A stretch of DNA of 43,377 nucleotides from Alistipes sp. (lineage in GTDB: Bacteria > Bacteroidota > Bacteroidia > Bacteroidales > Rikenellaceae): positions 1-43,377 of the forward strand of contig JAFQHI010000014.1 of the NCBI GenBank assembly GCA_017398045.1, in the 5' to 3' direction. Under the pieces are notes generated by a model, which worked only from the letters and a program-made list of their open reading frames with translations, was not told where the DNA came from and did not search any database. Every line of letters begins with the position of its first letter. The stretch's first letter is position 1. This document shows positions 13,478-33,142 of this stretch, in pieces. A program made the translations under genes and the position numbers.

Positions 13478-14755
13478 ATGAAAAAACTACTCGTTTTAAC
13501 GATGTGTCTGGCCTGTATCGGCCTCTGTTTCAGCTGCGAAGAGGAGACAAACCCGCAGTATGTATTCCCGACGCCCGAAACGACGCCTACGGCGACCGTC
13601 ACCCCGATTGAGAAGGGTACGGATTACATCATCATCCGCATCATCTCCTACTATGCCGATGCTTGCGCCTACCTCTACACCGAGGGTGAGACGTTGAGCA
13701 AATCGCTCGACCAGGTATTCGCAGAGGGTACCCTCGTCGAGGGCGAGAAGGTGGAGGTAAAGATTGAGGGGCTGACCCCCGAGACGGCCTACACGTTCGT
13801 AGCCGCCGCCAAGGATGCCGTCCGCGGTTCGGTATGCCAGCCCGTCACGGTCATCACGGCCAGCGACGCCCCCGAATCGAACTACCCGAAGCGTATGTCG
13901 TTCGAGAAGTTCGAGCGCACCTTCTCGGATGGTGGCGTAGCCAAAGGTTACATCGTCCTTGCCGACCTGAAGGCCAACACAAAACTTCGCTTTGCCCCCA
14001 CGCACCTGAAGCCGGCCGAAACGCCGACCTCGGCCTTCAAGTCGTTCTCGTCGCTGGGCAAGGGTGTCCCCTATGCCGTTTCGAATGGCGGTTACTTCTG
14101 GGACGGTGCTTCGCTCAGCCTCTGCGTTTCGGATGGCGAAGTGAAGTCGATTGCCACCGAGTTGGCCTACCCCACGGTGAATGGCGAGCAGATTATCGCC
14201 TACCCCGTGCGTGCCGCGCTGGGTCAGATGGCCGACGGCTCGTTCGAGGCCACGTGGGTCTATTGCATCAACCAGAAGCCCTATTCGTTCCCCTCGCCGC
14301 TCGAGAACAACGAGCTGACCGAGACCTACATGACATCCGCCCCGACCGCAACGACGGCTGGAGCCTCGCTTTGGGAGCCGCAACAGGCCATCGGTGGTGG
14401 CCCGATGTTGGTCTATAAGGGCAAGAACGTCGCCATGGATTACTACTACCGCGAGATTATGCACACGGGTGGCACGGCCGGTACGTCGCGTCAGCCCCGC
14501 ACGGCCATTGGTGCCACGAAGAGCGGTAAGGTGATGTTGCTCGTTTGCGACGGTCGCGGCAAGAATGGCTCGAACGGCCTCACGTTGAGCGAAATGGCCG
14601 AAATCTTTGTCGAGGCAGGTATGGACTACGCCATCAACCTCGACGGTGGTGGTTCGTCGGCTATCGTAGGCTACGACGGTCAGCTCTGCAACGCACCGAG
14701 CGATGGCAGTCAGCGTGCCGTACCGACCGTAGTGGTTATCTCCGAGGTGGAGTAA
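13478..14755 (+). CDS. NAGPA-like phosphodiester glycosidase lipoprotein
   Basis: A 425-residue lipoprotein (lipobox LCFSC, Cys20, then EEE, a likely surface-export signal). Residues 30-130 are an Ig/FnIII-like module shared with the second GHL10 protein of this operon. Residues 140-425 form a phosphodiester glycosidase domain of the human NAGPA 'uncovering enzyme' family: NGGYF at 203-207, GGGPML at 307-312, PRTAIG at 340-345, DGRG at 358-361 and LDGGGSS at 388-394. Known eukaryotic members hydrolyse GlcNAc-alpha-1-phospho-6-mannose, releasing GlcNAc. As the first gene of the operon it may remove phosphodiester-linked sugars at the cell surface; the actual aglycon is unknown. Confidence 0.85.
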   Translation: MKKLLVLTMCLACIGLCFSCEEETNPQYVFPTPETTPTATVTPIEKGTDYIIIRIISYYADACAYLYTEGETLSKSLDQVFAEGTLVEGEKVEVKIEGLTPETAYTFVAAAKDAVRGSVCQPVTVITASDAPESNYPKRMSFEKFERTFSDGGVAKGYIVLADLKANTKLRFAPTHLKPAETPTSAFKSFSSLGKGVPYAVSNGGYFWDGASLSLCVSDGEVKSIATELAYPTVNGEQIIAYPVRAALGQMADGSFEATWVYCINQKPYSFPSPLENNELTETYMTSAPTATTAGASLWEPQQAIGGGPMLVYKGKNVAMDYYYREIMHTGGTAGTSRQPRTAIGATKSGKVMLLVCDGRGKNGSNGLTLSEMAEIFVEAGMDYAINLDGGGSSAIVGYDGQLCNAPSDGSQRAVPTVVVISEVE

Positions 14756-14799
14756 GCAAAAGAAGTTATCAATATATAATATAGGTACAACCCGAAATC

Positions 14800-16149
14800 A
14801 TGAAACATTTTCGATTCATACAGCTCGCCGTGGCAGCCCTGCTGGGCTTCACGCTCATGAGCTGCGCACCCAAAAGCACCCAGAAACCGGTCTATATGTG
14901 GGTGGACTGCGAGGCCAACTTCGCACGTATGAGTTCGCTCGACTCGATTGCCTTCTACACCGAGAAGATGCACCAAATCGGTGTTACGGACATCGTTGTC
15001 GATGTAAAGTCGATTATGGGCGAGACCCTCTACGACAGCAAATACGCCCCCTACATGGGCGAATGGGAGGGTACGGTGCGCCCGCGCGAGTATGACATGA
15101 TGCGCCACTTTATCGACGAGGGCCACAAGCGCGGTATGCGTGTACACGGCTCGCTCAACATCTTTGCCGGCGGTCACAACTTCTTTAACCGCGGTATCAT
15201 CTACCAGGAGCATCCCGAGTGGCAGTCGATTGTCTATCGTCCGGATGGAACGCTCGTCCCCATCAGCGAGATTAAGACCAACTACAACGGTATGCTCAAC
15301 CCCTCGAATCCCGAGGTGCGTGCCTATCAAAAGAATATCCTCGTAGAGTTCGTGGAGCGTTATCCCGATGCCGACGGTATCATCTTCGACCGTCTGCGCT
15401 ACGACAACATCACCTCGGACTTCTCGCCCCTCTCGCGCGAGCAGTTTGAGGCTTGGAGCGGCATCAAGCTGGAGAACTACCCCGAGGATGTATTGACCTG
15501 GGCCGACGAGAAGAACTGGAAGCCGGGCAAATACTTCAAGGAGTGGGTCGAGTGGCGTGCCACCATCATCAAGACGTTTGTCGAGGAGGCTCACGAGGCC
15601 ATTCATGCCGCAAATCCCAACATCCTCGTTGGCGACTATACGGGTGCCTGGTATCCGACCTACTATCAGCTGGGCGTAAACTGGGCCAGCACGCAGTACG
15701 ACCCCTCGGGACGTTATCCCGATTGGGCTTCGGAGAATTACCACAAGACGGGCTATGCCGAGTTGCTGGATATCTACATGACGGGCCTCTACTACACGCT
15801 CGTTACGAAGGATGAGGTGGATGCTGCTCAGGGTCGCGTCATCGGTATGCGTGGTGAGTCGGGCATGGACCCCAACGATTTGACCTACTGCTACTCGGTC
15901 GAGGGCGGTGCCGAATTGGCACAGGCCATCACCTGCGGTGTGGTTCCCGTCGTAGGTTCGCTCTATGTCGAGCAATACAAGAAGAAGGATGCCGAGGGCA
16001 ACGAGGTCGATGACCCCGAGCAGTTCGGCAAGGCCGTAGCGCAGGTCATGAAGAGCTGCGAGGGCGGTCTGATGATTTTCGACCTGGTACACATCATCAA
16101 CCACAATTGGTGGGATGTACTCGAAGAGAACATGAAGGTCGTTGAGTAA
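14800..16149 (+). CDS. GHL10-type TIM-barrel glycosidase-like lipoprotein (first copy)
   Basis: A 449-residue lipoprotein (Cys22 in LMSC-APK; no acidic run, so probably periplasmic). It lacks the Ig module and begins straight in the barrel (YMWVDCEANF at 32-41). The GHL10 signature is FDRLRYD (196-202), with D197 the probable catalytic or substrate-binding acid. Further motifs include TDIVVDVKS, GMRVHGSLN and GDYTGAWYPTYYQLGVNWAS. It is paralogous to the product of 22788-24470: both have a DR-x-R-(Y/F)-D motif and a matching GxW(Y)xTYYxxGVNWAS segment. The family is loosely related to alpha-amylase-like barrels. Specificity cannot be read from sequence. Confidence 0.82.
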   Translation: MKHFRFIQLAVAALLGFTLMSCAPKSTQKPVYMWVDCEANFARMSSLDSIAFYTEKMHQIGVTDIVVDVKSIMGETLYDSKYAPYMGEWEGTVRPREYDMMRHFIDEGHKRGMRVHGSLNIFAGGHNFFNRGIIYQEHPEWQSIVYRPDGTLVPISEIKTNYNGMLNPSNPEVRAYQKNILVEFVERYPDADGIIFDRLRYDNITSDFSPLSREQFEAWSGIKLENYPEDVLTWADEKNWKPGKYFKEWVEWRATIIKTFVEEAHEAIHAANPNILVGDYTGAWYPTYYQLGVNWASTQYDPSGRYPDWASENYHKTGYAELLDIYMTGLYYTLVTKDEVDAAQGRVIGMRGESGMDPNDLTYCYSVEGGAELAQAITCGVVPVVGSLYVEQYKKKDAEGNEVDDPEQFGKAVAQVMKSCEGGLMIFDLVHIINHNWWDVLEENMKVVE

Positions 16150-16184
16150 TCGTTTCGAAATCACAAACTTAAAACTCAATATCT

Positions 16185-19100
16185 ATGAAACATTTATCCC
16201 AGAACAGAAGGGGGGGGGCTTTGTTCGGCCGTATGCTGGCAATGCTTTTATCGCTCTTCGTGGTTTTGAGTCCGGCGATGGCTTGGGCGCAAAACAGCGT
16301 CAAGGGAACGGTCGTCGATGAGGCGGGAGAACCGGTTATCGGCGCCACGGTCATTGTTGTAGGCACCCAAACGGGTACCACGACCGACATCAACGGTCAA
16401 TTCTCACTGCAAAACCTGAAGAAGGAGAGCGTCTTGCAGATTTCGTTCATCGGTTATCAAACCGTGACCGTCCCTGTCAATGGCGCAACGAATCTGAAGG
16501 TGGAGCTTAAGAACGACGCCGAGAAGATTGACGAAGTGGTGGTCGTAGGTTACGGTGTACAGAAGAAGGCCTCGGTGACGGCGGCCATCTCGCAAATCTC
16601 GGGCGAAGAGCTTGAGAAGGCCCCGGTAGGCGACGTAACGAACATGCTGGCCGGTCGTGTGGCCGGTGTGACGGCCGTGCAGACTTCGGGTCAGCCGGGT
16701 GCCGATGGCTCGTCGATTATGGTACGTGGCCAGTCGGTGCTTTACATCGTCGATGGTGTGCCTCGTGACATCAACCAAATCAACCCCGAGGATATCGAGT
16801 CGATTTCGATTCTGAAGGATGCTTCGGCCGCTGCCGTCTATGGTCTGGATGGTAACACGGTTATCATCGTGACGACCAAGCGCGGTCAGAAGGGTGAAGC
16901 CACCATCTCGTACAAGGGTACGTTCGGTGTCAGCGCAAATGCCAACCCAATGGAGCTTTTGGACGGTCCGGGCTACGCCTATTGGTACAACAAGGCGTTG
17001 GAGTTGGATGGTCAGCAGCCCATCTTCACGGCCGACATCGTGCAGAAGATGCTTAACAAGGAGGATGGTTGGGGCAACACCAACTGGTACGACAAGGTCT
17101 TCGACGTGGGTACCACCATGTCGCACACCATTTCGGCCAACGGTGGCAACGACAATATGAACTACTTCGCTTCGGTGGGTATGTTCGACCAGAAGGGTAA
17201 CGTCGACAACTTCAACTTCCGTCGTTACACGGCACGTGCCAACCTCTCGGCCAAGATTGCCAAAAACCTCACGCTGGAGGTGGGTGTTGCAGGCCGTATT
17301 CAGGACCACGACCAGCCGACCTACTCGGCCGACCCGAATGCCTGGAACAACGTAGCCCAGCAGGCGATGCGCGTACACCCCTACGTACCGGAGAAGGTGA
17401 TGGTGGATGGCGTGGAGTACCACACCGCAACGCCGACCGCTTCGGCCACGGTAAACCCTGTAGCCGCCTACGAGGAGTCGGGTTCGTTCAAGAGCCGCGC
17501 CACCTTTATCCAGCCCAACATCTCGCTGCGCTGGGATGTACCCTGGGTGGAGGGTCTGTCGGCCAAATTCTTCGCTTCGTATGATATGACCTTCCAGCAC
17601 ACGAAGGCCCTTTCGACCCCGTATGAGTTGGCTCTGGGTCAATTCTCGTATGACGAGAACGGCTACATCAACTCGATTAACTACTCGGTGAGCAACACCT
17701 ATTCGGGTCTGGGTTCGGAGAACTCGTTGCAGGAGGCTTCGTACTACACCTATTATGGCATTACGCAGACCTCGCTCTCGTATGACAACACCTTCGGCAA
17801 GCACCGCGTGGCTGCTCTCGCGCTGATTGAGACGCGCGACAACAAGACCAACAACCACTACGGCCGTATGTACGATTTGATGTTCGAGAATCTGCCGGAG
17901 TTGAACTTCGGTGACGCCTCGAGCGACAAGCGTGCCATTGGCGGTATGAGCAACCGCTCGCGCCAGGTGGGTTTCGTAGCACGTCTGAACTATGACTTCG
18001 ACAACCGCCTCTACATCGAGCTGTCGGGTCGTTACGACGGTACGTACCTCTTCTCGGGTATGAGCGGTTCGCGCTGGGGCTTCTTCCCCGCTGCATCGGC
18101 CGGTTGGCGTATCTCGGAGGAGAAGTGGTTTGGTGCCGAGTGGGTGGATAACCTGAAGCTCCGTGGCGGTATCGGTCTGACGGGTACGTCGGCCGTGAGT
18201 GCCTACCAATACCTCAACACGATGGCCTTCTCGAGCGGCAACGCCGTAGTCATTGGCGGTATGGGGCAGCAGAGCATCTACACCTCGTCGGTGGCCAACC
18301 CCAACATCTCGTGGGAGAAGAACCTGAACTACAACATCGGTGTCGATGCTACGTTCTGGGGTGGCAAGTTGGGCGTTGAGTTCGATGCCTTCTACACCTA
18401 CAAGTACGATATGCTGGCCAGCGCATCGGGTGCCTATCCTCCCTCGGTGGGTGGTTACTTCCCCGCCTGGGAGAACAAGAACAAGCAGGATGTGAAGGGT
18501 TTCGATATCACCCTCTCGCACAACAACCGCGTGGGCGACTTCTCGTATGGCATCAAGTTCATGGGTTCGTATGCCAAGCGTCGTTGGTTGCTCTACTCGG
18601 GTGATGCTGCCAATGCTCCCGACTACCAGAAGCTGACGGGCAAGGAGGTTGGTTCGGTGATTGGTTTCATCGACCAGGGCCTGTTCCAGAGCGAGGAGGA
18701 GATTCTCAACTCGCCTACGATGGTGGGTAAGCCGATTCGCGTGGGTGATATCAAGTACCTCGACCGCAACGGTGACGGTAAGATTTCGTATGAGCAGGAC
18801 CGTGGCTATGTAGGCACGAGCGTCTATCCGAAGTTCACGGGTGGTTTGGCCTTCAATGCCGCTTGGAAGGGCATCGACCTGAACTTCCTGTTGCAGGGTG
18901 CTTTGGGTTCGACCATCGCTCTGACGGGTGTATATGACGGTGGTATCATGGACAACACGTCGATGACCAAGCCCTTCTACCACGACGGTAACTCGCCTCT
19001 CTACCTGGTCGAGAATTCGTGGACGCCCGAGAATACGGGTGCCTACTTCCCGCGTCTGTCGCTCGCCTCGAGTTCGAACAACGCCTACTCCTCGACCCGC

Positions 19101-19337
19101 TGGTATCGTCCGGGTGACTACCTGCGTCTGAAGACCGCACAGTTGGGTTACACGCTGCCCGAGCGTCTGACGCGCAAGGTCGGCATCCGCAAGCTGCGTA
19201 TCTACGTCGAGGGTTCGAACCTCTTGACCTTCAGCCACGTTGGCAAGTATAACATCGACCCCGAGCTGCCGAGTGTAAACAACGGTTACTACCCGCAGCA
19301 GCGCGTCATGTCGGTTGGTTTGAACATTACGCTCTAA
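16185..19337 (+). CDS. SusC-like TonB-dependent outer-membrane transporter
   Basis: A 1050-residue protein. Signal peptide to about A35 (AMAWA-QNS), carboxypeptidase-regulatory-like domain at about 38-115 (VKGTVVDEAGEPVIGATV), the TonB-box-like segment EVVVVGYGVQKK, plug domain at about 125-235 and a C-terminal 22-strand barrel ending in LNITL. It would import oligosaccharides, with SusD as lid, using TonB energy. The plug looks trimmed: between RGQ and LYIVDGVP only SV is present, whereas typical members carry several more residues there. YGLDGNTVIIVTTK is also slightly short. A run of nine G lies in codons 9-12 (16210-16218), in frame in this sequence. The susD gene follows by 10 bases. Confidence 0.95.
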   Translation: MKHLSQNRRGGALFGRMLAMLLSLFVVLSPAMAWAQNSVKGTVVDEAGEPVIGATVIVVGTQTGTTTDINGQFSLQNLKKESVLQISFIGYQTVTVPVNGATNLKVELKNDAEKIDEVVVVGYGVQKKASVTAAISQISGEELEKAPVGDVTNMLAGRVAGVTAVQTSGQPGADGSSIMVRGQSVLYIVDGVPRDINQINPEDIESISILKDASAAAVYGLDGNTVIIVTTKRGQKGEATISYKGTFGVSANANPMELLDGPGYAYWYNKALELDGQQPIFTADIVQKMLNKEDGWGNTNWYDKVFDVGTTMSHTISANGGNDNMNYFASVGMFDQKGNVDNFNFRRYTARANLSAKIAKNLTLEVGVAGRIQDHDQPTYSADPNAWNNVAQQAMRVHPYVPEKVMVDGVEYHTATPTASATVNPVAAYEESGSFKSRATFIQPNISLRWDVPWVEGLSAKFFASYDMTFQHTKALSTPYELALGQFSYDENGYINSINYSVSNTYSGLGSENSLQEASYYTYYGITQTSLSYDNTFGKHRVAALALIETRDNKTNNHYGRMYDLMFENLPELNFGDASSDKRAIGGMSNRSRQVGFVARLNYDFDNRLYIELSGRYDGTYLFSGMSGSRWGFFPAASAGWRISEEKWFGAEWVDNLKLRGGIGLTGTSAVSAYQYLNTMAFSSGNAVVIGGMGQQSIYTSSVANPNISWEKNLNYNIGVDATFWGGKLGVEFDAFYTYKYDMLASASGAYPPSVGGYFPAWENKNKQDVKGFDITLSHNNRVGDFSYGIKFMGSYAKRRWLLYSGDAANAPDYQKLTGKEVGSVIGFIDQGLFQSEEEILNSPTMVGKPIRVGDIKYLDRNGDGKISYEQDRGYVGTSVYPKFTGGLAFNAAWKGIDLNFLLQGALGSTIALTGVYDGGIMDNTSMTKPFYHDGNSPLYLVENSWTPENTGAYFPRLSLASSSNNAYSSTRWYRPGDYLRLKTAQLGYTLPERLTRKVGIRKLRIYVEGSNLLTFSHVGKYNIDPELPSVNNGYYPQQRVMSVGLNITL
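16210..16218 (+). repeat. G9 homopolymer in susC signal-peptide codons
   Basis: Nine consecutive G residues in the codons for R-G-G-A at residues 9-12. It is the longest G run I see in the window. Loss or gain of one G would shift the frame before the end of the signal peptide, so slipped-strand switching is possible. Confidence 0.9.
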
Positions 19338-19347
19338 TCCGAAAACT

Positions 19348-20991
19348 ATGAAAACTATGAAAACGAGAATTTTAACCTTGCTCGTGTCGTTCACGGCTCT
19401 CGGATTGACGAGTTGTAACGACTGGTTGGACCTCACGCCCACGGACCGTGTATCGGATAAGTCGGCGTGGGAATCGCAGGAGGCAACCGACCTCTATATC
19501 AACAATTTCTACGAGTATCTCCACATCTACGGTCAGTTTGGCGACCAGCAGTTCCAGGGCAACCTGACGGAGGGTCTTACCGATACGTTCAAATACGGCT
19601 CGCCGATTTTGGGTAAGCGTGCCGGTGACTCGAACCACTATGTGTTTACGCCCGAGACGATGTCGAGCGCAGGCAGTATGCTCGATTGCTGGACGAACAC
19701 CTATACGCGCATTCGCCGCATCAACGAGTTCCTCTCGGCCCAGCAGAGCTTCTCGTCCTACACGGAGGAGGTAAATACGCGCTATGAGGCACAGGCTCGT
19801 TTCTTCCGCGCCTTCCTCTACTTCCAGCTTGCGAAGCGTCACGGAGGTCAGATTATTATCTACAAGACGTTGGGCGAGACGGTGAAGAATACGCCGCTCA
19901 CGTCGGCTGCCGAGACGTGGCAGTACATCTACGACGAGCTGATGTTCGCCGCCGAGAACCTGCCCACGGAGTGGAATTCGCTCAACACGGGTCGCGTGAC
20001 GAAAGGTGCCGCCTATGCCCTCCTTTCGCGTGCCATGCTCTATGCCGAGCGTTGGGCCGATGCCAAAGCGGCTGCCGAGAAGGTGCTGGAGATGAACTAC
20101 GCGCTTACCCCGACCTACGCAGCCGCCACGAAGGGTGGCAACTCGGAGTCGATTCTGGAGTTCAACTACCTCGTAACCGGCCCGAACCACTATTGGGACC
20201 GCTATATGTGTATGTACCACGAGTACACCACGGCCGGTGGTGCTTCGCCCACGCAGGAGATGGTCGAGAGCTATGAGGCAAAAGATGGCTCGAAGGTCGA
20301 TTGGACGAAGTGGCACGCTGCCGAGGGTACGACCGAGTATCCTCCCTACGAGCAGCTTGAGCCGCGTTTTGCCGCCACGGTACTCTACAACGGTGCCACG
20401 TGGAAGGGTCAGCAGCTGGAGTGCTGCGTAGATGGCAAATATGGCACCTACGTGGACTACGGCGTCGAGCCTTATCCCTACGGCAAGACCGTAACGGGCT
20501 ACTATATGCGCAAGTTCCGCCAGGAGGAGAACACCGACCTGACGAACGTAGCCTCGACCTCGACGTGGGTGGAGATTCGTTTGGCCGAGGTGCTGCTGAA
20601 CCTGGCCGAGGCCGAGTATAAGCTCGGCAACGATGCCGCCGCCATGGGTTACATCGCCCAGGTACGCGACCGCGTAGGTCTGCCGACCGACGAGTCGCTG
20701 ACGGGTGACGCCGTCTTCGAGGCCCTCGTACACGAGCGCAAGATTGAGTTGGCCTATGAGGGTCATCTGTGGTGGGATATGCGCCGTTGGAAGCTCTCGG
20801 AGGAGGCCTTCACGGGCTACCGCGTACATGGTCTGAAAATCACGAAGGAGGGTTCGGGCTACCGCTACCAGTATGTAGATGCCGATGGTCAGGACCGCAC
20901 GTTCCTCAACCGTATGTACCGCCTGCCGATTCCCGATGCCGAGTTGCAGAACAACAACGCCATCGAACAGTTCCCCGAGTGGAATTTCTAA
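19348..20991 (+). CDS. SusD-like glycan-binding lipoprotein (RagB/SusD family)
   Basis: A 547-residue outer-membrane lipoprotein (lipobox LTSC, Cys23, then NDWLDL). The N-terminal CNDWLDLTPTDRVSDKSAW, the TPR-like helices (EAQARFFRAFLYFQLAKRHGG; WVEIRLAEVLLNLAEAEYKLGN; ALVHERKIELAYEGHLWWDMRRWKL) and the ending FPEWNF are typical of the family. It forms the lid of the SusC channel and binds the target glycan on the cell surface. Start: ATG at 19348, or at 19357 with a shorter leader (MKTRIL); both give a working signal peptide. It is followed 13 bases later by the beta-rich surface lipoprotein gene. Confidence 0.95.
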   Translation: MKTMKTRILTLLVSFTALGLTSCNDWLDLTPTDRVSDKSAWESQEATDLYINNFYEYLHIYGQFGDQQFQGNLTEGLTDTFKYGSPILGKRAGDSNHYVFTPETMSSAGSMLDCWTNTYTRIRRINEFLSAQQSFSSYTEEVNTRYEAQARFFRAFLYFQLAKRHGGQIIIYKTLGETVKNTPLTSAAETWQYIYDELMFAAENLPTEWNSLNTGRVTKGAAYALLSRAMLYAERWADAKAAAEKVLEMNYALTPTYAAATKGGNSESILEFNYLVTGPNHYWDRYMCMYHEYTTAGGASPTQEMVESYEAKDGSKVDWTKWHAAEGTTEYPPYEQLEPRFAATVLYNGATWKGQQLECCVDGKYGTYVDYGVEPYPYGKTVTGYYMRKFRQEENTDLTNVASTSTWVEIRLAEVLLNLAEAEYKLGNDAAAMGYIAQVRDRVGLPTDESLTGDAVFEALVHERKIELAYEGHLWWDMRRWKLSEEAFTGYRVHGLKITKEGSGYRYQYVDADGQDRTFLNRMYRLPIPDAELQNNNAIEQFPEWNF

Positions 20992-24470: not shown

Positions 24471-24472
24471 TT

Positions 24473-24510: not shown

Positions 24511-25173
24511 ATGAAGCGTATCTTGGTTGCTTTGCTGGCGCTGATGATTGCCATTCCCGCGATGGCTCAATCGGGCTTTGGCGACTACTACGACTGCCGT
24601 CTGGCAGCCCACCGCAAGGCGGGTATGCCCAAAGGGGCGGTGGTCTGGATGGGCGACAGTCTGACGGAGCAGGCATGGTGGAGTTTCCTCACCAAGGAGA
24701 AGCCGCTTGTCAATCGTGGCATCGGAGGCGATAACACGCGCGGTATGTTGGCGCGTCTGCCGGAGATTTTGGAGTTCGCACCTCGCAAGATGTTCCTCAT
24801 GGCAGGCGTAAACGACCTCTCGGGCAACCGCCCCGTCGAGGAGGTGGTGCAGAACATCCGCAAGATGCTCGAAATGGTGCGTGAGCGCGTCCCCTCGTGC
24901 GAGGTCTATCTGCAAAGCGTCATCACGCCCAACAACGAGGTGCTGGCCTACGCCTACATCAAAAACAAGCAACACCTGATGGTGGAGCTGAACGAAAAGC
25001 TCAAAGCAATGTGCGACGAGGGGCTGGCCACATGGGTCGATTTGCGTCCGTTGCTGCACAATGAAAAGGGCGAGTTGAAGGAGGAGCTGACCAAAGACGG
25101 CATCCACCTCCACCCCGAAGCCTACGTCATGTGGGTTGACCACCTCAAAAAGATGAACTATTTGCGCAAATAG
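24511..25173 (+). CDS. Exported SGNH/GDSL hydrolase
   Basis: A 220-residue periplasmic esterase-like protein with a signal peptide (cleavage near AMA-QSG at 19-20). All SGNH blocks are visible: GDSLTE with nucleophile S50, GIGGDNTRG for the oxyanion Gly (about 72), GVND with N101, and DGIHLHPEAY with D196 and H199. It resembles the GDSL-type acetylhydrolases that remove O-acetyl groups from sugars. The start at 24511 is favoured over an in-frame TTG at 24499 because it gives MKRIL plus a signal peptide and has GGTGGAG just upstream. The DUF5009 gene follows by 12 bases. Confidence 0.85.
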   Translation: MKRILVALLALMIAIPAMAQSGFGDYYDCRLAAHRKAGMPKGAVVWMGDSLTEQAWWSFLTKEKPLVNRGIGGDNTRGMLARLPEILEFAPRKMFLMAGVNDLSGNRPVEEVVQNIRKMLEMVRERVPSCEVYLQSVITPNNEVLAYAYIKNKQHLMVELNEKLKAMCDEGLATWVDLRPLLHNEKGELKEELTKDGIHLHPEAYVMWVDHLKKMNYLRK

Positions 25174-25185: not shown

Positions 25186-26589
25186 ATGAAACGAGTAGCC
25201 GCCATAGATGTATTGAGGGCCTTGGCCATTATCGGCATGGTTGTTTCGGGGCAGATGCTCTGGAATGCCGAGCTGCCGGCCTTCATGTTTCATGCGCAAC
25301 TGCCACCCCCGACCTTTGCCTTCAACCCCGAGGTGCCGGGCATCACGTGGGTCGATTTGGTCTTCCCCTTCTTCCTCTTCTCGATGGGTGCCGCCATGCC
25401 GCTGGCACTGCGTCGCAGGGAGCAAAAGGGCGCAGGGCTGAAAGAGGTGGCGTGGAGTGCCATGCACCGCTTCATCTGGTTGGCCTCGTTTGCCATCATC
25501 CTCGGCAATACGCGCATGGGACGACTCACCATGCTGCAACCCTGGGCAGCGTCACTCGTAACGCTCCTGGTTTGGGGGCTGTTCTTTATGATGTTCGGCC
25601 GCCTGCCGTGGCTCAAAAAGCGGAAGAACACGCTGCTGAATTGGGGCGGATTTGCAGCACTTATCGGCCTTACGCTGCTCTACAAGCCGCTCTTCGGGGT
25701 CGAGGTTTCGCTCCATCAGAGCGATATCATCATCCTGATTTTGGCCTCGATGGCCCTCTTCGGAACGCTTCTTTGGTGGCTGACACGCCAATCGACGGTG
25801 ATGCGCATCGTGGTCATCGGAGGCATTGCCCTCCTAAAGATGGCCTCCACGGTCGAAGGGTCGTGGTGTGCGTGGCTCTGGCAGCAGACCCCTGCCGTAT
25901 GGCTCTTCCGCTTCGAATTTTTGAAATACCTCTGCCTCGTACTTTCGGGTACGCTGGCCGGTGATGTGATTTATCGCGCCCTGCAAACCAGACCCGCCGA
26001 CGACGGCCCGCAGCACAGCTCAAACGGCCCTCTGACGGGGTTGTTGGTGGCGTTGATGGCCGCCCTTATCGGGGTGCAAATGTGGGGTCTGTTTGTCCGC
26101 GAGGTGGGTTGGACGGTGTTGCTCTCGGTGGCACTTTGCGCCCTCACGGGATGGCTCATGAACCGCCTCCATTCGGCCGAACAACCGCTCCTTAAGGAGC
26201 TGTTCGTGCTGGGTGCTGCGCTGCTCTTCATCGGTTTGATTGCCGAGCCGCTCGAAGGGGGTATCAAAAAGGACCATGCCACCATCAGCTTCTTCTTCGT
26301 TACGGGCGGTTTAGCCACCTTCGTACTGATTGCCGCATTGGCATTGGAGCTGCGCTTCGGGATTCGATTCCGTATGTTGGAGGCCTCGGGTGCTAACCCG
26401 ATGTTTGCCTACACCGCCTCGAGCTACCTCATCACCCCGCTGGCAACCCTCACCACCCTCTCGGTGTGGATTGAGAAGTTCGCCACGCTCACCCCTTGGT
26501 GCGGATTTTTGCGCGGAGTCCTCTTCGCCCTCCTGGTGATGGCAATCACCTACCCCTTCACACGCAAAAACTACTATTGGAAATCGTAA
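25186..26589 (+). CDS. DUF5009 / HGSNAT-like membrane acetyltransferase
   Basis: A 467-residue inner-membrane protein with about 11 hydrophobic segments. The N-terminus AAIDVLRALAIIGMVV and the segment ITWVDLVFPFFLFSMGAAMPLAL are hallmarks of the family of human HGSNAT, which passes acetyl from cytosolic acetyl-CoA across the membrane to terminal alpha-glucosamine of heparan sulfate. In HGSNAT a His near the first loop carries acetyl; here FMFHAQ in the equivalent loop supplies a candidate His. In this PUL it could N-acetylate periplasmic glucosamine ends so that an alpha-GlcNAc-acting enzyme can proceed (inference). It is in tight linkage with the SGNH and DUF4434 genes (12-base gaps each side). 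Confidence 0.8.
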   Translation: MKRVAAIDVLRALAIIGMVVSGQMLWNAELPAFMFHAQLPPPTFAFNPEVPGITWVDLVFPFFLFSMGAAMPLALRRREQKGAGLKEVAWSAMHRFIWLASFAIILGNTRMGRLTMLQPWAASLVTLLVWGLFFMMFGRLPWLKKRKNTLLNWGGFAALIGLTLLYKPLFGVEVSLHQSDIIILILASMALFGTLLWWLTRQSTVMRIVVIGGIALLKMASTVEGSWCAWLWQQTPAVWLFRFEFLKYLCLVLSGTLAGDVIYRALQTRPADDGPQHSSNGPLTGLLVALMAALIGVQMWGLFVREVGWTVLLSVALCALTGWLMNRLHSAEQPLLKELFVLGAALLFIGLIAEPLEGGIKKDHATISFFFVTGGLATFVLIAALALELRFGIRFRMLEASGANPMFAYTASSYLITPLATLTTLSVWIEKFATLTPWCGFLRGVLFALLVMAITYPFTRKNYYWKS

Positions 26590-26601
26590 AAAAGAGCATC
26601 T

Positions 26602-27540
26602 ATGAAAATTACCGGAACCTTTCTCGACGAAATCAGCCACGATATTCCGCACCAGAATTGGGGCGAAAAGGAGTGGGATGCCGATTTTCAGCATATGCGC
26701 TCGATTGGCATCGACACGGTTATCATGATTCGCTCGGGCTACCGCAAATTTATTACCTATCCTTCGAAATACCTCATCGGCAAGGGTTGCTATACCCCCT
26801 CGACCGACCTGCTGGATATGTTCCTCCGCCTTGCCGACAAGCACGGCATGAAGTTCTACTTCGGCCTTTACGACTCGGGCCACTATTGGGACACGGGCGA
26901 TATGTCGAAGGAGACCGAGTACAACCGCTTCGTCATTGACGAGGTGTGGGAGAACTACGGCCAACACCACCCCTCGTTCGGTGGCTGGTACCTCAGCGGT
27001 GAGATTTCGCGTCGCACGAAGGGGGTCATCGAGGCCTTCCGCGAGCAGGGTGAGCATTGCAAAGCCGTTTCGGGCGGTCTGCCGACCCTCATTTCGCCCT
27101 GGATTGACGGCAAGAAGGCCGTTCTGGCCGCCTCGTCGTCGCTCTCGAAGGAGGATGCCGTATCGGTGGCCGACCACGAACGAGAGTGGGAGGAGATTTT
27201 TGCCGGCATACAGGGTGCCGTCGATGCCGTGGCCTTTCAGGATGGCCACATCGACTACGACGAGCTGGATGCCTTCTTCGAGGTGAATAAACGATTGGCC
27301 GACCGCTACGGCATGGAGTGCTGGACCAATGCCGAGACCTTCGACCGCGATATGCCGATTAAGTTCCTGCCGATTAAATTCGAGAAGTTGCGCATGAAGT
27401 TGGAGGCGGCTGCACGTGCCGGCTACGATAAGGCCATCACCTTCGAGTTCTCGCACTTCCTCTCGCCCCAGTCGAGCTACACCTCGGCACACCACCTCTT
27501 CGACCGCTATCGGGAGTATTTCCTCGGCGAGAAGTTGTAA
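26602..27540 (+). CDS. DUF4434 glycoside-hydrolase-like TIM barrel
   Basis: A 312-residue protein without a signal peptide, so cytoplasmic. The start ITGTFLDEISHDIPHQNWG followed by GIDTVIMIRSGYRKF is characteristic of DUF4434. GWYLSGEIS (about residues 132-140) holds a conserved-looking Glu at a typical barrel strand end, and FQDGHID and EFSHF follow near the C-terminal side. The family has a glycosidase-like barrel, but its reaction is not known to me. The tight 12-base gap from the DUF5009 gene, and the epimerase gene 85 bases downstream, place it among the inner-membrane and cytoplasmic steps. It may split the imported oligosaccharide before epimerisation (inference). Confidence 0.78.
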   Translation: MKITGTFLDEISHDIPHQNWGEKEWDADFQHMRSIGIDTVIMIRSGYRKFITYPSKYLIGKGCYTPSTDLLDMFLRLADKHGMKFYFGLYDSGHYWDTGDMSKETEYNRFVIDEVWENYGQHHPSFGGWYLSGEISRRTKGVIEAFREQGEHCKAVSGGLPTLISPWIDGKKAVLAASSSLSKEDAVSVADHEREWEEIFAGIQGAVDAVAFQDGHIDYDELDAFFEVNKRLADRYGMECWTNAETFDRDMPIKFLPIKFEKLRMKLEAAARAGYDKAITFEFSHFLSPQSSYTSAHHLFDRYREYFLGEKL

Positions 27541-27625
27541 CCGGGCAGGTGGAAGAGTTGTCTAAACAGAAACTGAAACAAAACGATTGGGGGGCACCCC
27601 TAACCTTAAGACTAAAAGATAAACT

Positions 27626-28807
27626 ATGATGCAGATTGATGCCTTAATCAAACAATACCACGACGAACTGCACGAGCGGGTGCTGCCCTTCTGGCTGAAC
27701 CATTCGCAAGACAAGGAGTTCGGTGGCTACTTCACCTGCCTCGACCGCGACGGTTCGGTCTTCGACACCGACAAATTCATGTGGTTGCAGGGGCGCGAGG
27801 TGTGGCTCTTCTCGATGCTTTGCAACAAGGAGGGAATTCACCCCGAATGGCTTGAGTGCGCACGTCAGGGTGCCGAGTTCATGCTCAAGCATGGCCACGA
27901 TGGTGACTACAACTGGTATTTCGCCCTCACGCGCGAGGGTCAGCCCTTGGTTGAGCCGTATAACATCTTCTCCTACACCTTTGCGGCCATGGCCTTTGCC
28001 CAGCTGCACAAGGCTACGGGCGAGGAGCGGTATGCCGAGGCTACGCGCCGCACGTTCCGCCACATCATGGAGCGTTGGGACAACCCCAAGGCGCAGTGGA
28101 GCAAGGCACACCCCGGTACGCGCGATATGCGTGCGTTGGCCCCGTCGATGATTCTGTGCAACCTGCTCCTGGAGATTGAGCATCTGATTGAGCCGGAGCT
28201 GGTCGAGGAGTCGATTGAGAAGGCACTGGGCGACGTGATGAACACCTTCTACCGCCCTGAACTGGGCCTTGTTGTCGAGCATCTGAATGCCGACGGCACG
28301 TTGAGCGATACGTTTGATGGTCGCCTTATCAACCCGGGCCACACGCTCGAGACGATGTGGTTTGTGATGGATTTGGCACGTCGTCGTGGCGACGAGGAGC
28401 TGATTCGTAAGGCCGTGGAGATTGGTCTTAATACGCTCGAGTTTGGCTGGGACAAGGAGCATGGAGGTATCTTCTACTTCATGGACCGCAAGGGATGTCC
28501 TCCGCAGCAACTCGAATGGGACCAGAAACTTTGGTGGGTGCATATCGAATCGACGATTGCCATGTTGGAGGGTTACCTCTTAACGGGCGATGAGCGTTGC
28601 AAGGCCTGGTTCGAGAAGTTGCACGACTACACCTGGTCGCACTTCCGCGACAGCGAGCATCCCGAGTGGTACGGCTACCTGAATCGTCGTGGCGAGGTGT
28701 TGCTGACGCTTAAGGGTGGCAAATGGAAGGGTTGCTTCCACGTACCGCGTGGTCTCTACAAATGCGAGTGTCTGCTGCGTGAGTTGAAACAAAAGATGGA
28801 GAAATAG
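27626..28807 (+). CDS. N-acylglucosamine 2-epimerase (AGE) family protein
   Basis: A 393-residue cytoplasmic (alpha/alpha)6-barrel enzyme. Known members interconvert GlcNAc and ManNAc, or epimerise free mannose or cellobiose, at C2. The catalytic pair is clear: H239 in NPGHTLET and H372 in KGCFHVPRGL. Supporting residues are R57 in QGREVW and E308 in WWVHIEST, which match the positions known in bacterial AGE. WYGYLNRRGE and the length are typical. With the ROK regulator, NagB-like fusion and NAGPA-like enzyme nearby, an amino sugar is the likeliest substrate. Mannose remains possible. The phosphoesterase gene follows after 2 bases. Confidence 0.88.
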   Translation: MMQIDALIKQYHDELHERVLPFWLNHSQDKEFGGYFTCLDRDGSVFDTDKFMWLQGREVWLFSMLCNKEGIHPEWLECARQGAEFMLKHGHDGDYNWYFALTREGQPLVEPYNIFSYTFAAMAFAQLHKATGEERYAEATRRTFRHIMERWDNPKAQWSKAHPGTRDMRALAPSMILCNLLLEIEHLIEPELVEESIEKALGDVMNTFYRPELGLVVEHLNADGTLSDTFDGRLINPGHTLETMWFVMDLARRRGDEELIRKAVEIGLNTLEFGWDKEHGGIFYFMDRKGCPPQQLEWDQKLWWVHIESTIAMLEGYLLTGDERCKAWFEKLHDYTWSHFRDSEHPEWYGYLNRRGEVLLTLKGGKWKGCFHVPRGLYKCECLLRELKQKMEK

Positions 28808-28809
28808 CC

Positions 28810-30237
28810 ATGAAACGCATCCTGTTGGTCGTTATCGGCCTGTGGTGGGCTTTGGCGGCATGGGCCGCAGGCCTCCGCACGCTCAAAGGAACGGTTAGTT
28901 GCGAGGGCAAAGGGGTCGCTTCGGTGGTCGTAACCGATGGCGAAAGTTTCACGCAGACCGATGCGAAGGGACGTTTCTCGTTCGCCTCGTCGGCGGATAA
29001 CAAGCTCATTTACATCACCATCCCCGCAGGCTACCGGGTCGCTTCGGAGCAGAGTGTTCCCCAATTTTGGCAGCCGATTGAGGAGGGCAAAAAGCAATAC
29101 GATTTCACCCTCCACAAAAAGGAGCAGGACGACACGCACCACGGCTTTGTGGTGATTGCCGACCCGCAGATTTGGCATAAAAAGGAGTTCCCCGCCCTCG
29201 AAGCGGGCATGAAGGATATTCACAAGACGGTCTCGGAGTACGCGATTCCCTTCCACGGCATCTGCTGTGGCGATGTGATTTCCTACGACCACACCTTCTA
29301 CCCCACCTACAACGAGGTGGCCGCCACCTCGGGACTCGATTTCTTCTCGACCCCGGGCAACCACGATATGACCCTCTACAGCCGTTCGCACGAGACCTCG
29401 ACCCGCCTTTGGGAGGAGACCTTCGGCCCTGTCTGCTACTCGTTCAACGTGGGTAAGGCGCACTATGTGGTACTCAATGACAACTTCTACATCGGACGCG
29501 ACTACTTCTACATCGGCTATCTCGACGAAAAGCAGTTCGCCTGGCTCGAAAAGGATTTGAGCTACGTCGAGGAGGGTTCGACGGTCTTTGTGGTGCTGCA
29601 CATCCCCACGACCTGCGAGGAGAGCGACCGCAAGCAGTTCAGCTATGGCAACATCGCCAACGTGATGACCAACGCCCCGCAGTTGCACCGTATGCTCGCT
29701 CCGTACAATGCCCACATTCTCTCGGGGCATACCCACACGACCTACAACCAAATCATCACCGAAAAGCTCTACGAACACGTGATTCCCGCCCTGAGCGGTG
29801 CCTGGTGGCAGGGGATGCTCTGCACCGACGGCACACCGCGCGGTTACGGGGTCTTTGAGGTCGATGGCGAGAAGGTGCAGTGGTACTACAAATCGACCGA
29901 CTTTACGCCCGACCACCAGATGACCCTCTACACCGAGCAGGATGCAGCGGGCTTTGCGGGCCAGGTGGTGGCCAACATCTGGGCTGTGGATGAAAATTGG
30001 CGCATCGAGGCGCGATTTGATGCGGGCGACGCGCAACCGATGGAGCGATTCACCTCCTACGACCCGGGGACGCAAAAGATGTATGCCGACCGCGAGAAGC
30101 TGGACCATCCGTATGTCTATCCCACCCCATCGGACCACTTCTTCCGTGTGGCGATTCCCGAAGGTGCCAAGCAGGTGACCATCACGGCCACCGACCCCTT
30201 CGGCCGGAGCTATCAAGAGAGCCTGAACATCGAATAA
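28810..30237 (+). CDS. Exported calcineurin-like metallophosphoesterase
   Basis: A 475-residue periplasmic protein (signal peptide cleaved near AWAA-GLR, about 20). Residues 22-102 are a small beta domain (MetallophosN-like). Residues 112-320 hold the two-metal phosphoesterase core: ADPQ (D118), GDV (D155), GNHD (184-186), VLHIP (H264) and SGHTHT (H307, H309). Residues 330-475 are a C-terminal beta domain. It would hydrolyse a phosphomono- or diester; next to a phosphodiester glycosidase it is a natural candidate for removing the phosphate exposed after the sugar cap is cut (inference). It is packed closely between the epimerase (2-base gap) and FAD enzyme genes (20-base gap). Confidence 0.88.
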   Translation: MKRILLVVIGLWWALAAWAAGLRTLKGTVSCEGKGVASVVVTDGESFTQTDAKGRFSFASSADNKLIYITIPAGYRVASEQSVPQFWQPIEEGKKQYDFTLHKKEQDDTHHGFVVIADPQIWHKKEFPALEAGMKDIHKTVSEYAIPFHGICCGDVISYDHTFYPTYNEVAATSGLDFFSTPGNHDMTLYSRSHETSTRLWEETFGPVCYSFNVGKAHYVVLNDNFYIGRDYFYIGYLDEKQFAWLEKDLSYVEEGSTVFVVLHIPTTCEESDRKQFSYGNIANVMTNAPQLHRMLAPYNAHILSGHTHTTYNQIITEKLYEHVIPALSGAWWQGMLCTDGTPRGYGVFEVDGEKVQWYYKSTDFTPDHQMTLYTEQDAAGFAGQVVANIWAVDENWRIEARFDAGDAQPMERFTSYDPGTQKMYADREKLDHPYVYPTPSDHFFRVAIPEGAKQVTITATDPFGRSYQESLNIE

Positions 30238-30257
30238 TTAAGAGCAAACGATAACGC

Positions 30258-32081
30258 ATGAAACGACTTATCAACTACGCCGTAACCCTTCTGGTTGCGG
30301 CGTTATTGACCGCTTGTAGCGGTGAAAAATACGACGTAGTGGTCATCGGAGGCGGCGTAAGCGGCACGACGGCCGGTATTCGCGCTGCCCGACTGGGCGC
30401 ACAGACCCTCATCGTGGAGCAAGGCCCCTGGCTGGGCGGTATGCTGACCTCGGCAGGTGTCAGTGCCACGGATGGCAACTATCGCCTGCGTGGCGGTATG
30501 TGGGGCGAGTTGCGCGACTCGCTCGAGGCCCACTACGGCAGTGCCGAAGCCCTCAAGACGGGCTGGGTGAGCAACCTGCTCTTCGAGCCGAGCGTCGGAG
30601 CGCGTATCTTCCGCGCCATGGCCGACAACGAAGAACTTTTGACCATCAAGTTCGAGACCGAGGTAACATCCATCGAGCGCACCGAGGAGGGCTGGCGCAT
30701 CCGACTCCAAGGTCCGCTGGGCAGCCAAACCATCACGGGCAAGGTGCTTATCGACGGCACGGAGCTGGGTGATGTGGCGGCATCGCTCGGGGTGAAGTAC
30801 GATATCGGCATGGAGAGCCGCTCGATGACGGGCGAGGATATCGCTCCGGAGGAGGCCAACGGCATCATCCAGGACCTGACGATGGTGATGATACTCAAAG
30901 ACTACGGCGAGGATAGAACCATCGAGCGACCCGCGGAGTACGACTCGACGCTCTTTGCCTGCGCCTGTGACAATGCCATCTGCCAGACCCCGAAAGAGGC
31001 CAACCGTCTCTGGTCGAAGCAGATGATGATGTCGTACGGTCGTCTGCCGAACGGCAAAATCATGATTAACTGGCCCATCGAGGGTAACGACTACTATGTC
31101 AATATGATTGAGATGACGGCCGAGGAGCGTGCGGAGGCGGTAGAAAAGGCGAAAAACCACACCCTTTCGTTCCTCTACTTCATCCAGCACGAGCTGGGGC
31201 TGAATACGCTCGATTTGGCCGATGACGAGTTTCCGACCGAGGATTTGATGCCGATTATCCCCTACCACCGCGAATCGCGTCGCACGCATGGCGAGGTGCG
31301 TTTCCAGCTGAACCACATCACCGCCCCGTACGATTATACGCTCTACCGCACAGCGATTGGCGTGGGCGACTACCCCGTGGACCAGCACCACACCCGCTAC
31401 ACGGGTTGGGAGGCTCTGCCGAACCTCTATTTCCACTCGGTGCCGTCGTATGGCGTACCGATGGGCGTACTGTTGCCGAAGGAGGTCGATGGGCTGATTG
31501 TGGCCGAGAAGTCGATTTCGGTGAGCAACCTTGTCAATGGCTCCACGCGCCTGCAACCTGTTGTGATGCAACTGGGTGAGGCTGCCGGCATCATGGCCGC
31601 CCTGGCCGTCAAGCAGGGCATCGAACCGCGCGAAGTGGCCGTGCGCGACGTACAGCATGAGGTATTAAACGGAGGCGGTTATCTGTTGCCCTTCCTCGAT
31701 TTGCCGGCCACCGACCCCCACTTCAAAGCCTTGCAGCGCGTAGGTGTGACGGGCATCATCGAGGGCGAGGGGATGACCGTAGGCTGGGAGAACCAGACCT
31801 GGTTCCGCGCCAAAGAGCCTATTTCGCTCGCAACACTTTCGGAAGGCTTGCACCGCTTTGATGCGAAGTTCGCACCGATTGCCGAGGAGCGCAACACCAC
31901 CCTATCGGATTTGGAGGGTTGGTTTGGCGAGGTGAACGATGCCATGTGGAATGCCTGGGGGCTGGAGAATTACAGCACGACCCGTGCGCTCACGCGCGAG
32001 GAGTGCGCCGTGGTTATCGACGCGCTGCTGCGCCCCTTCTACACCTATTCGGTAACACTTCAAGGTGAATTTGTACGATGA
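30258..32081 (+). CDS. Exported FAD-dependent oxidoreductase lipoprotein
   Basis: A 607-residue lipoprotein (lipobox LLTAC, Cys20). Only about ten residues later a Rossmann FAD-binding motif begins: VVVIGGGVSGTTAGIRAARLG (GGGVSG at 31-36), then a Glu-ending strand (LIVEQ) and the GGMLTSAG segment typical of the FAD_oxidored (PF12831) group. A late segment GSTRLQPVVMQLGEAAG is the usual second FAD contact. No twin-arginine motif is present, so the protein seems to be exported by Sec and must load its flavin outside the cytoplasm. Substrate unknown; oxidation of a sugar ring hydroxyl is one idea (inference). Its last 4 bases overlap the start of the final operon gene. Confidence 0.85.
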   Translation: MKRLINYAVTLLVAALLTACSGEKYDVVVIGGGVSGTTAGIRAARLGAQTLIVEQGPWLGGMLTSAGVSATDGNYRLRGGMWGELRDSLEAHYGSAEALKTGWVSNLLFEPSVGARIFRAMADNEELLTIKFETEVTSIERTEEGWRIRLQGPLGSQTITGKVLIDGTELGDVAASLGVKYDIGMESRSMTGEDIAPEEANGIIQDLTMVMILKDYGEDRTIERPAEYDSTLFACACDNAICQTPKEANRLWSKQMMMSYGRLPNGKIMINWPIEGNDYYVNMIEMTAEERAEAVEKAKNHTLSFLYFIQHELGLNTLDLADDEFPTEDLMPIIPYHRESRRTHGEVRFQLNHITAPYDYTLYRTAIGVGDYPVDQHHTRYTGWEALPNLYFHSVPSYGVPMGVLLPKEVDGLIVAEKSISVSNLVNGSTRLQPVVMQLGEAAGIMAALAVKQGIEPREVAVRDVQHEVLNGGGYLLPFLDLPATDPHFKALQRVGVTGIIEGEGMTVGWENQTWFRAKEPISLATLSEGLHRFDAKFAPIAEERNTTLSDLEGWFGEVNDAMWNAWGLENYSTTRALTREECAVVIDALLRPFYTYSVTLQGEFVR

Positions 32082-33142
32082 AACGACTCTTTTGGATGAT
32101 GACCCTTTGTGCGGCTTTGACCGCTTGCGGGGGTGAAAAGACCACCCCGATTGCCGATTCGCCCGCCCGCGTGGTGGGGCGCACGATGACGCTCGACGAT
32201 GGCTCCATCGCCTTCGATTGGAGCGGTGTCTATATCGATATACGCTTTCGCGGCAGCTATCTGGCCGTTGAGTTAAGTGACACGAAGCGCAACTACCTCA
32301 ACCTCTGGGTCGATGGCGAGGAGCAGGCAAAACTGACCTCCGAGGGCGACCACACAACGCTCGTTCTGTTCAACGACCCGACGGCCGAGGGCGAGCATCA
32401 CATCCGCCTGCAAAAGGCCACCGAGGCCGAGCAGGGTCGGGTGACGCTCCACGCGCTCACGACCGACGGACGACTGCTTGCGACCGAGGATTTGAAGCAA
32501 ACGCGCCACATCGAATTTTATGGCGACTCGCTCACCTGCGGCTATGGCACCGAGAGCAAATCGGGCAGTGAACCCTTCCTTCCCGAGACCGAGAATTGCC
32601 GTTACACCTATGCGGCACTGACGGCAGCGCATTTCGGAGCCGACTACAACCTGATTTCCCATTCGGGACGCGGTCTGGTGCGCAACTATGGCGACTCGTT
32701 GCAGCTCTCCGACCCGACAACCACGATGAGTGCGCGTGCCTTCCGTCTCTTTGACGAAGACCCCGCCTCGGCCTGGGACTTTACCAACAGCCCCTACCGC
32801 CCCGATGCCCTTGTCATCACACTCGGCACGAACGACTTCAGCACCCCGCCCCACCCCACCGAGGAGCAATATACGGCGGGCTATCGCGCCCTGATTGAGA
32901 AGCTGCGCACGGCCTGGGGCGAGGAGCTTCCCGTGCTGTGTGTGGTCCATTCGCCCCATGCCGTAAAGTGTGTTGCCAAGATGGTCGAGGAGATTCCCCA
33001 CACGGCCATGGCCGATATTTCGTGCAATGTCTATAACCGCACGACCGACCTCGGTGCTTCGGAGCATCCCAACCGCTACGGACAGGAGAAGATGGCCCGC
33101 ATCGTCATCGAACAATTCGCCGCACTGACCGGCTGGGAGTAA
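32078..33142 (+). CDS. CE2-like SGNH esterase lipoprotein
   Basis: A 354-residue lipoprotein (lipobox LTAC, Cys17; followed by GGEK, so probably periplasmic). Residues 30-140 form a jelly-roll domain (WSGVYIDIRFRGSYLAVEL), followed by an SGNH domain: GDSLTCGYG with S151, SGRG, GTND with N252 and EHPNRYGQ with H330. This order matches carbohydrate esterase family 2, which removes or transfers O-acetyl groups on sugars. The residue before the catalytic His is Glu and not the usual Asp-x-His, as in dyad-type CE2 enzymes. It is the last gene of the PUL, overlaps the FAD gene by 4 bases and is followed by a terminator. Confidence 0.83.
   Translation: MKRLFWMMTLCAALTACGGEKTTPIADSPARVVGRTMTLDDGSIAFDWSGVYIDIRFRGSYLAVELSDTKRNYLNLWVDGEEQAKLTSEGDHTTLVLFNDPTAEGEHHIRLQKATEAEQGRVTLHALTTDGRLLATEDLKQTRHIEFYGDSLTCGYGTESKSGSEPFLPETENCRYTYAALTAAHFGADYNLISHSGRGLVRNYGDSLQLSDPTTTMSARAFRLFDEDPASAWDFTNSPYRPDALVITLGTNDFSTPPHPTEEQYTAGYRALIEKLRTAWGEELPVLCVVHSPHAVKCVAKMVEEIPHTAMADISCNVYNRTTDLGASEHPNRYGQEKMARIVIEQFAALTGWE

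Follow-up and report, generated by a model that had tools for sequence, protein, structure and literature searches.

The window analysed here, a stretch of 43,377 nucleotides from a draft Alistipes sp. genome (2.36 Mb, 56 contigs, 91.5% complete), carries at positions 13,478 to 33,142 a run of 13 same-strand genes which Pfam and NCBIfam models identify as a Sus-type polysaccharide utilization locus (PUL). The source appears to be an uncultured Alistipes-like gut bacterium, and the cluster looks like a kit for eating a glycan. From the predicted gene functions we see an even chance that this PUL serves an O-acylated, amino-sugar-rich glycan which probably bears an N-acetylhexosamine (HexNAc) 1-phosphodiester. 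It is a recurring PUL type built from known domain families and, as far as searches of the open literature show, undescribed. Should the phosphodiester reading be true, the locus would give Bacteroidota the genes to feed on glycans joined through sugar-phosphate links, and bacterial NAGPA, DUF5009, DUF4434 and DUF4985 proteins would gain a common pathway.

Gene content and predicted amino-sugar catabolism

Intergenic gaps within the run measure at most 85 bp, and there is one overlap of 4 bp. The SusC and SusD genes are adjacent and lie on the same strand as the carbohydrate-active genes, which makes the run a Sus-type PUL; the SusC/D pair, the lipoproteins and the operon layout are those of other such loci. 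Unlike usual Sus-type PULs, the window has few genes of established carbohydrate specificity, and a ROK protein is the regulator. Sus-type PULs are usually regulated by hybrid two-component systems (HTCS) or extracytoplasmic function (ECF) sigma factors. The genes named in an original prediction, made from the letters of this DNA, are open, lie where it had placed them and score above the curated Pfam cut-offs, the upstream ROK gene included (Table 1). Its gene list was correct but incomplete, with SusC/D, DUF5018, a GDSL esterase, a CE2 esterase and a flavin adenine dinucleotide (FAD)-dependent enzyme left out. The upstream carrier is present as well, but its description as AmpG-like is loose: this protein of the major facilitator superfamily (MFS) stays far below the cut-off for the AmpG muropeptide carrier.

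Amino-sugar catabolism is well supported as a predicted function, because AGE exceeds its family cut-off, DUF5009 resembles NagX and HGSNAT, and some related loci carry NagB (as NagB-PIG-L), GH20, GH89 or sialic-acid genes. AGE scores 659.4 against the NCBIfam equivalog for N-acyl-D-glucosamine 2-epimerase (cut-off 600), is close to the solved AGE 2gz6 (1.6e-154) and is the single AGE match across its own genome. Asp8 and Arg11 (DxxR) and His36 of DUF5009 are invariant in 10/10 sequences, a pattern shared with the transmembrane glucosamine (GlcN) N-acetyltransferases NagX and HGSNAT. Judged by its motif in an alignment of DUF5009 sequences only, His36 probably corresponds to the catalytic His of HGSNAT. 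Unlike NagX and HGSNAT, the window DUF5009 sits in a PUL with a phosphoesterase and NAGPA. According to one report, DUF5009 intermixes with the HGSNAT clade and its function is described as lacking experimental confirmation (PMC12423673). Fitness data in five bacteria indicate that NagX is required for glucosamine use, and N-acetylation of periplasmic GlcN was proposed (PMC9007349). The NagB-PIG-L fusion, located outside the operon, is a possible downstream step and sits inside the related loci of genomes G320 and G330. A search for NagA in the own genome returned three Amidohydro_1 proteins.

Inspection of the N-termini revealed lipoprotein-like signals on NAGPA, GHL10a, GHL10b, SusD, DUF5018, the FAD enzyme and CE2, and ordinary signal peptides on the GDSL esterase and the phosphoesterase. 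DUF5009 has the look of a membrane protein, and DUF4434 and AGE are without a signal. The likely start Met of DUF5018, again by inspection, is at 21005, not at 20879. Inspection of the DNA after the carrier gene showed a terminator-like hairpin and T run, so that ROK-carrier and NAGPA-CE2 probably form separate transcription units. No convincing repeat common to the regions 5' of ROK, NAGPA and NagB-PIG-L emerged as a ROK operator.

These assignments allow a model of the pathway. At the surface NAGPA and GHL10b, which have an N-terminal domain in common, would cut the polymer, and SusC/D together with DUF5018 would import the fragments. In the periplasm, the GDSL and CE2 esterases would strip O-acyl groups, the metallophosphoesterase would take off phosphate, GHL10a would trim the glycan and the FAD enzyme would oxidise some group. 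DUF5009 would N-acetylate GlcN with cytosolic acetyl-CoA. The MFS carrier would bring the product into the cytosol, where DUF4434 would hydrolyse it and AGE would interconvert N-acetylmannosamine (ManNAc) and N-acetylglucosamine (GlcNAc), feeding NagB-PIG-L. The ROK protein may be the amino-sugar sensor. The order originally proposed, namely uncapping, dephosphorylation, re-acetylation and epimerisation, is one that we infer.

NAGPA, the phosphoesterase and their conservation

The NAGPA protein matches the PF09992 profile with 108.4 bits (curated cut-off 25). Its core motifs RT..G, DGR/DGQ and LDGGGS are conserved, R341, T342, G345, R360, D389, G390-G392 and S393 being invariant in 15/15 aligned proteins. 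The animal mannose-6-phosphate uncovering enzyme belongs to the same Pfam family, and the solved chains, which are animal enzymes, share RTAIG and NLDGGGS with the window protein. In contrast to the animal enzyme, the window protein is lipoprotein-like, lies in a PUL and shares with GHL10b an N-terminal stretch of some 135 residues that looks like one domain (30% identity, E 2e-10); phmmer homology to the solved enzymes extends over about 75 residues only (6pku, 1.4e-8, 74 residues). This common domain and the acidic residues directly after the lipid Cys of both proteins suggest that NAGPA and GHL10b act at the cell surface. The metal motifs GD, GNHD, H and GHxH of the phosphoesterase are invariant in 14/14 sequences, and its first motif reads DxQ. 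The usual motif set of such enzymes is DxH, GD, GNH(D/E), H and GHxH, with DxH at the first position. Fusions of NAGPA domains to calcineurin-like phosphoesterases are reported (PMC11488536).

NAGPA at 48-74% identity over at least 220 residues was found in 9/100 other genomes of the family. Eight of these nine loci were fetched, one on a contig of only 11 kb (G338); the ninth (G336), split over contig ends, was excluded. GHL10 occurs in all eight near relatives, ROK and SusC/D in 7/8 each, DUF5009, the phosphoesterase, DUF4434 and AGE in 6/8 each, GH20 in 5/8 and NagB-PIG-L in 2/8. NAGPA and the phosphoesterase share one locus in 6/8, and in the more distant genome G059 they lie 3.2 kb apart. 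Among the 247 Bacteroidales genomes sampled, NAGPA matches above 70 bits were present in five besides the own one (G010, G026, G059, G128 and G238), with DUF5009 adjoining in G059 and G238.

A second comparison was anchored on DUF4434 and covered the best 80 of 592 relatives with a 10 kb flank, so that the nearest loci end before NAGPA. Neighbours were labelled by their best phmmer match above 40-60 bits; the queries were window proteins plus a few neighbours already annotated by Pfam. Within this set the nearest relatives are metagenome-assembled genomes named Alistipes or Rikenellaceae, many of them from ruminants. The 11 closest loci show 88-97% identity, and nine keep the gene order up to CE2, eight from SusC and the contig-limited L032 from DUF5018. 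L042, also among the 11, is missing AGE. L035:9900-16575 keeps only DUF4434-AGE-phosphoesterase-FAD-CE2; its homology to the window starts at the DUF4434 start codon, which puts a breakpoint between DUF5009 and DUF4434. Judged from these two variants, the gene set is modular. The check suggested in the original prediction, for the same gene set and order in other Bacteroidales, shows the order kept in most of the closest loci; elsewhere it is rearranged, with relatives in Tidjanibacter, Dysgonomonas, Bacteroides and others, spanning several Bacteroidota families. In Dysgonomonas sp. 25 a NAGPA-like gene (118 bits) adjoins GHL10a, GHL10b, ROK, DUF5009 and DUF4434. Since 63 of the 80 loci contain an MFS sugar carrier, DUF4434 seems to belong to a module for import and cytosolic steps that many loci have recruited. 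Its solved relative 4h41 was deposited as a putative alpha-L-fucosidase (3.9e-169).

For enrichment tests the 11 nearest loci were left out, giving 69. Here GHL10 accompanies the phosphoesterase in 8/10 loci bearing the latter (p 1.7e-4) and DUF5018 in 9/17 (p 0.006). Several observations weigh against the proposed pathway. In the same 69 loci GHL10 is enriched neither with DUF5009 (3/5, p 0.11) nor with FAD (p 0.40), AGE (p 0.99), CE2 (p 0.17), GDSL (p 0.26) or ROK (p 0.19), and low-scoring phmmer labels may stand for other subfamilies. NAGPA exceeds 60 bits in only 1/80 DUF4434-anchored loci, where the flank of the nearest loci stops short of it. Twelve other Bacteroidales genomes match both NAGPA and MetallophosC, nine of them above the MetallophosC cut-off, and the two are near each other in only two: G059 and G209, the latter with a weak NAGPA match (44 bits) 1.5 kb from MetallophosC. 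In the other ten (G010, G062, G072, G096, G128, G166, G212, G223, G224 and G238) they lie apart. We know of no reaction for the FAD enzyme or for DUF4434. Searches of the open literature, which leaves subscription papers mostly outside, returned nothing useful on activity of bacterial NAGPA or DUF2233. The papers found there under DUF and GHL terms make no mention of DUF4434 or DUF4985, and none of those listed for NAGPA ties it to a PUL, as judged on titles and abstract openings.

The link between NAGPA and the phosphoesterase thus rests mainly on near relatives. Of the phosphodiester-linked amino-sugar glycan originally predicted, the amino-sugar part is well supported by AGE, the DUF5009 motifs and the genes of relatives, but the phosphodiester part is plausible only, given co-location in 6/8 near relatives against 2/12 other Bacteroidales genomes that match both. 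It is also conceivable, if unlikely, that the NAGPA-like protein has no phosphodiesterase function, that an ordinary amino-sugar glycan is eaten and that the phosphoesterase acts on another ester. The short phmmer match to solved enzymes and the scarce co-location in the wider order are in keeping with this, as is the lack of NAGPA above 40 bits in 11 of 15 related loci outside the eight near relatives; the invariant core motifs, the co-location in near relatives and the short distance in G059 speak for a phosphodiesterase.

GHL10 barrels and the choice of substrate

GHL10a and GHL10b score 76.4 and 48.7 bits against the GHL10 profile (cut-off 27.9). GHL10b alone had no solved-structure match; a profile from 21 GHL10 sequences matched Cwp19 and one uncharacterised chain only. 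DigH may be a second GHL10 peptidoglycan enzyme; its family goes unnamed in the source consulted (PMC12288456). Cwp19 is described as a peptidoglycan lytic transglycosylase (PMC6016235), and its structure paper proposes Asp196 as the key residue, catalytic or stabilising (PMC5765458). Mapped via the DDY stretch of the alignment, the equivalent site carries Arg in 13 of the 21 aligned proteins and Tyr in the other eight. It is Arg198 in GHL10a, and neither window protein retains the proposed key residue. In all 21, the Asp just before this site and an Arg further on are invariant. Since the proposed key Asp is replaced throughout, Cwp19-like activity on peptidoglycan is not transferable to the window proteins. 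They share the GHL10 barrel with Cwp19 and differ by this replacement and an extra DUF4985 domain. With the Asp proposed as key missing, the GHL10+DUF4985 proteins are candidate enzymes of novel specificity or mechanism. The original statement that no well-characterised glycoside hydrolase family is obvious has to be amended, as GHL10 has a characterised member in Cwp19, one whose proposed key residue is replaced here.

DUF4985 and DUF5009 tend to occur in the same genomes. Among 247 Bacteroidales genomes DUF4985 was found in six, and DUF5009 matched in 45, six of them above 100 bits; five genomes, the own one included, have DUF4985 together with DUF5009 above 100 bits. With the own genome removed, each is present in five and both in four of 246 (p 1.7e-7). 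Because independence between the genomes in the sample does not hold (G059 and G165 belong to the same genus), the test was added at genus level (p 1.9e-5). The two genes lie within about 11 kb in G059 and G165, about 86 kb apart in G224 and on separate contigs in G164.

The substrate may be a host sialo/mucin-type glycan or a bacterial envelope phosphoglycan. Hints from relatives conflict; the sialic-acid genes of G059 and the GH89 neighbours favour host-type glycans. A host sialo- or mucin-type glycoconjugate, pruned by sialidase, GH20 or GH89 in relatives and with AGE converting sialic-acid ManNAc to GlcNAc (NanE-II), is an unlikely substrate though one to be taken seriously. In G059, NAGPA, DUF5009, the phosphoesterase and GHL10s share a single co-directional run with a BNR sialidase, a GDSL-SASA-NanM protein and a DHDPS-family lyase (all three by Pfam), as well as with GH20 and AGE by similarity. 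GH89 adjoins NAGPA in G290, and in L100 next to a weak NAGPA match (42 bits). One survey gives NanE-II as the principal route among Bacteroidetes (PMC5583593), and the AGE epimerase is common to that pathway and the window. The own genome encodes four BNR_2 proteins, three DHDPS proteins and one GH20; outside the window one full and one partial GH20 were found. Pfam scans comprised 28 window proteins, 40 proteins of related loci and eight from the rest of the genome. Unlike the NanE-II pathway, the window lacks sialidase and lyase: no sialidase, GH20, GH89 or N-acetylneuraminic acid lyase was detected among the 28 window proteins, and no mannosidase or sulfatase family in these and the 40 neighbours. 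Two scored DHDPS proteins of the own genome's three stay under the NanA cut-off (129 and 119 against 281), as does the G059 lyase (136), which is nearest to the NanA models, so that this comparison carries little weight. By tblastn, the G059 sialidase had no match in any of the four BNR_2 regions. On contig C31 the top BNR_2 protein is joined to a rhamnosidase, and the DHDPS gene of C31 adjoins a GH28 protein; both look pectin-related rather than part of a sialic-acid pathway. The DHDPS gene of C39 adjoins a sodium symporter, and the third lies on C29.

A bacterial envelope phosphoglycan with ManNAc and a GlcNAc-1-phosphodiester, such as a wall-teichoic linkage unit, a capsule or a secondary wall polymer, is rather unlikely as the target. 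Wall teichoic acids have a ManNAc-GlcNAc-1-P linkage, and capsules with HexNAc-phosphate exist. NAGPA would here cut the sugar-phosphate bond, the calcineurin-like enzyme would resemble a teichoic-acid phosphodiesterase and AGE would handle ManNAc. PhoD, a calcineurin-type enzyme, breaks down teichoic acid (PMC11488536). The sole characterised solved GHL10 match is a peptidoglycan enzyme, but its proposed key Asp is Arg or Tyr in 21/21 aligned GHL10s. The sole AGE match of the genome lies in the locus, and in a weak test no clear sialic-acid route appeared; if there is none, ManNAc/GlcNAc would come from the locus substrate, and bacterial phosphoglycans become possible. Faint hints of wall material come from L207:8366-9796, where a SpoIID-domain protein and then an AmpG-like carrier stand beside a GHL10a/SusC locus, and from L068:13798-15363 (Pedobacter frigoris), where a YkuD (L,D-transpeptidase) gene follows AGE. 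Amidase, muramidase and MurQ families were absent from the window and neighbour proteins scanned, the sialidase, GH89 and GH97 of relatives point elsewhere, and an open-literature search on teichoic acid in PULs listed nothing relevant. That the PUL eats phosphodiester envelope glycans of other bacteria, with surface NAGPA cleaving the HexNAc-1-P bond, GHL10+DUF4985 proteins cutting the glycan by a new active site, DUF5009 acetylating GlcN ends and AGE converting ManNAc, we regard as quite doubtful.

Very improbable is a heparan- or heparosan-like target, in which DUF5009 would acetylate terminal alpha-GlcN for an alpha-N-acetylglucosaminidase. In Bacteroides ihuae (L167) DUF5009 is near a GH89-like gene, named by similarity to a Pfam-confirmed GH89. 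Against it, glycosaminoglycan lyase and sulfatase families were missing from the window and neighbour proteins scanned, and GH89 was not found in the window proteins, the rest of the genome not having been searched for it.

Features of the window and neighbouring genes

Table 1. Annotated genes of the locus and its surroundings, with the matches that name them
Feature	Coordinates	Strand	Evidence
ROK-family regulator, NagC-like but under NagC cut-off	10667..11872	+	Pfam ROK 2.4e-56, HTH_24; NCBIfam NagC 200 vs 650
MFS carrier, distantly AmpG-like	11919..13196	+	MFS_1 1.5e-22; AmpG subfamily 144 bits vs 350
NAGPA-type phosphodiester glycosidase (predicted), lipoprotein-like	13478..14755	+	PF09992 5.7e-31
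GHL10a + DUF4985, lipoprotein-like	14800..16149	+	PF02638 2.7e-21, PF16373 3.4e-35
SusC-type TonB-dependent transporter	16185..19337	+	Plug, CarboxypepD_reg domains
SusD-type lipoprotein	19348..20991	+	PF07980 4.7e-56
DUF5018 lipoprotein, probable surface glycan-binding protein	21005..22729	+	PF16410 1.2e-76; start by inspection
GHL10b + DUF4985, lipoprotein-like	22788..24470	+	PF02638 7.7e-13, PF16373 2e-31
GDSL/SGNH esterase, secreted	24511..25173	+	PF13472 2.1e-24; start by inspection
DUF5009, HGSNAT/NagX-like membrane acetyltransferase (predicted)	25186..26589	+	PF16401 6.7e-59
DUF4434 protein without a visible signal peptide, presumably a cytosolic hydrolase	26602..27540	+	PF14488 6.5e-85
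AGE, N-acyl-D-glucosamine 2-epimerase	27626..28807	+	PF07221 1.9e-77; NCBIfam NF052547 659 vs 600
Metallophosphoesterase (MetallophosN/C), exported	28810..30237	+	PF16370 4e-44, PF16371 3.7e-25
FAD-dependent oxidoreductase, lipoprotein-like	30258..32081	+	PF12831 4.4e-92
CE2 carbohydrate esterase, lipoprotein-like	32078..33142	+	PF17996 3.3e-23, PF13472 9.8e-12
NagB-PIG-L fusion (GlcN-6-P deaminase-like + PIG-L), outside operon	6035..7993	-	NF002557 847 vs 384

Among the related loci, ADP-ribosylglycohydrolase-family genes were noted at L060:3817-5427 and L105:12333-13874, and L048 has a gene of similar size at the same place. L052 is a contig labelled Clostridiales with a Bacteroidales-type SusC/D-DUF4434 locus and is probably misbinned.

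In the window, a DUF4988+DUF5018 protein (8155-10314, minus strand) is divergent from ROK, and the same divergence is seen in G333 (L161). Two minus-strand genes are convergent to the operon; they encode a CotH-kinase-family protein (33636-36245) and a protein of 991 amino acids (36261-39236) that has no Pfam match at 0.001. A tyrosine integrase (Arm-DNA-bind_5, SAM-like, Phage_integrase) and a Mob_Pre protein are encoded at 39398-43000, which suggests a mobile element close to the locus.

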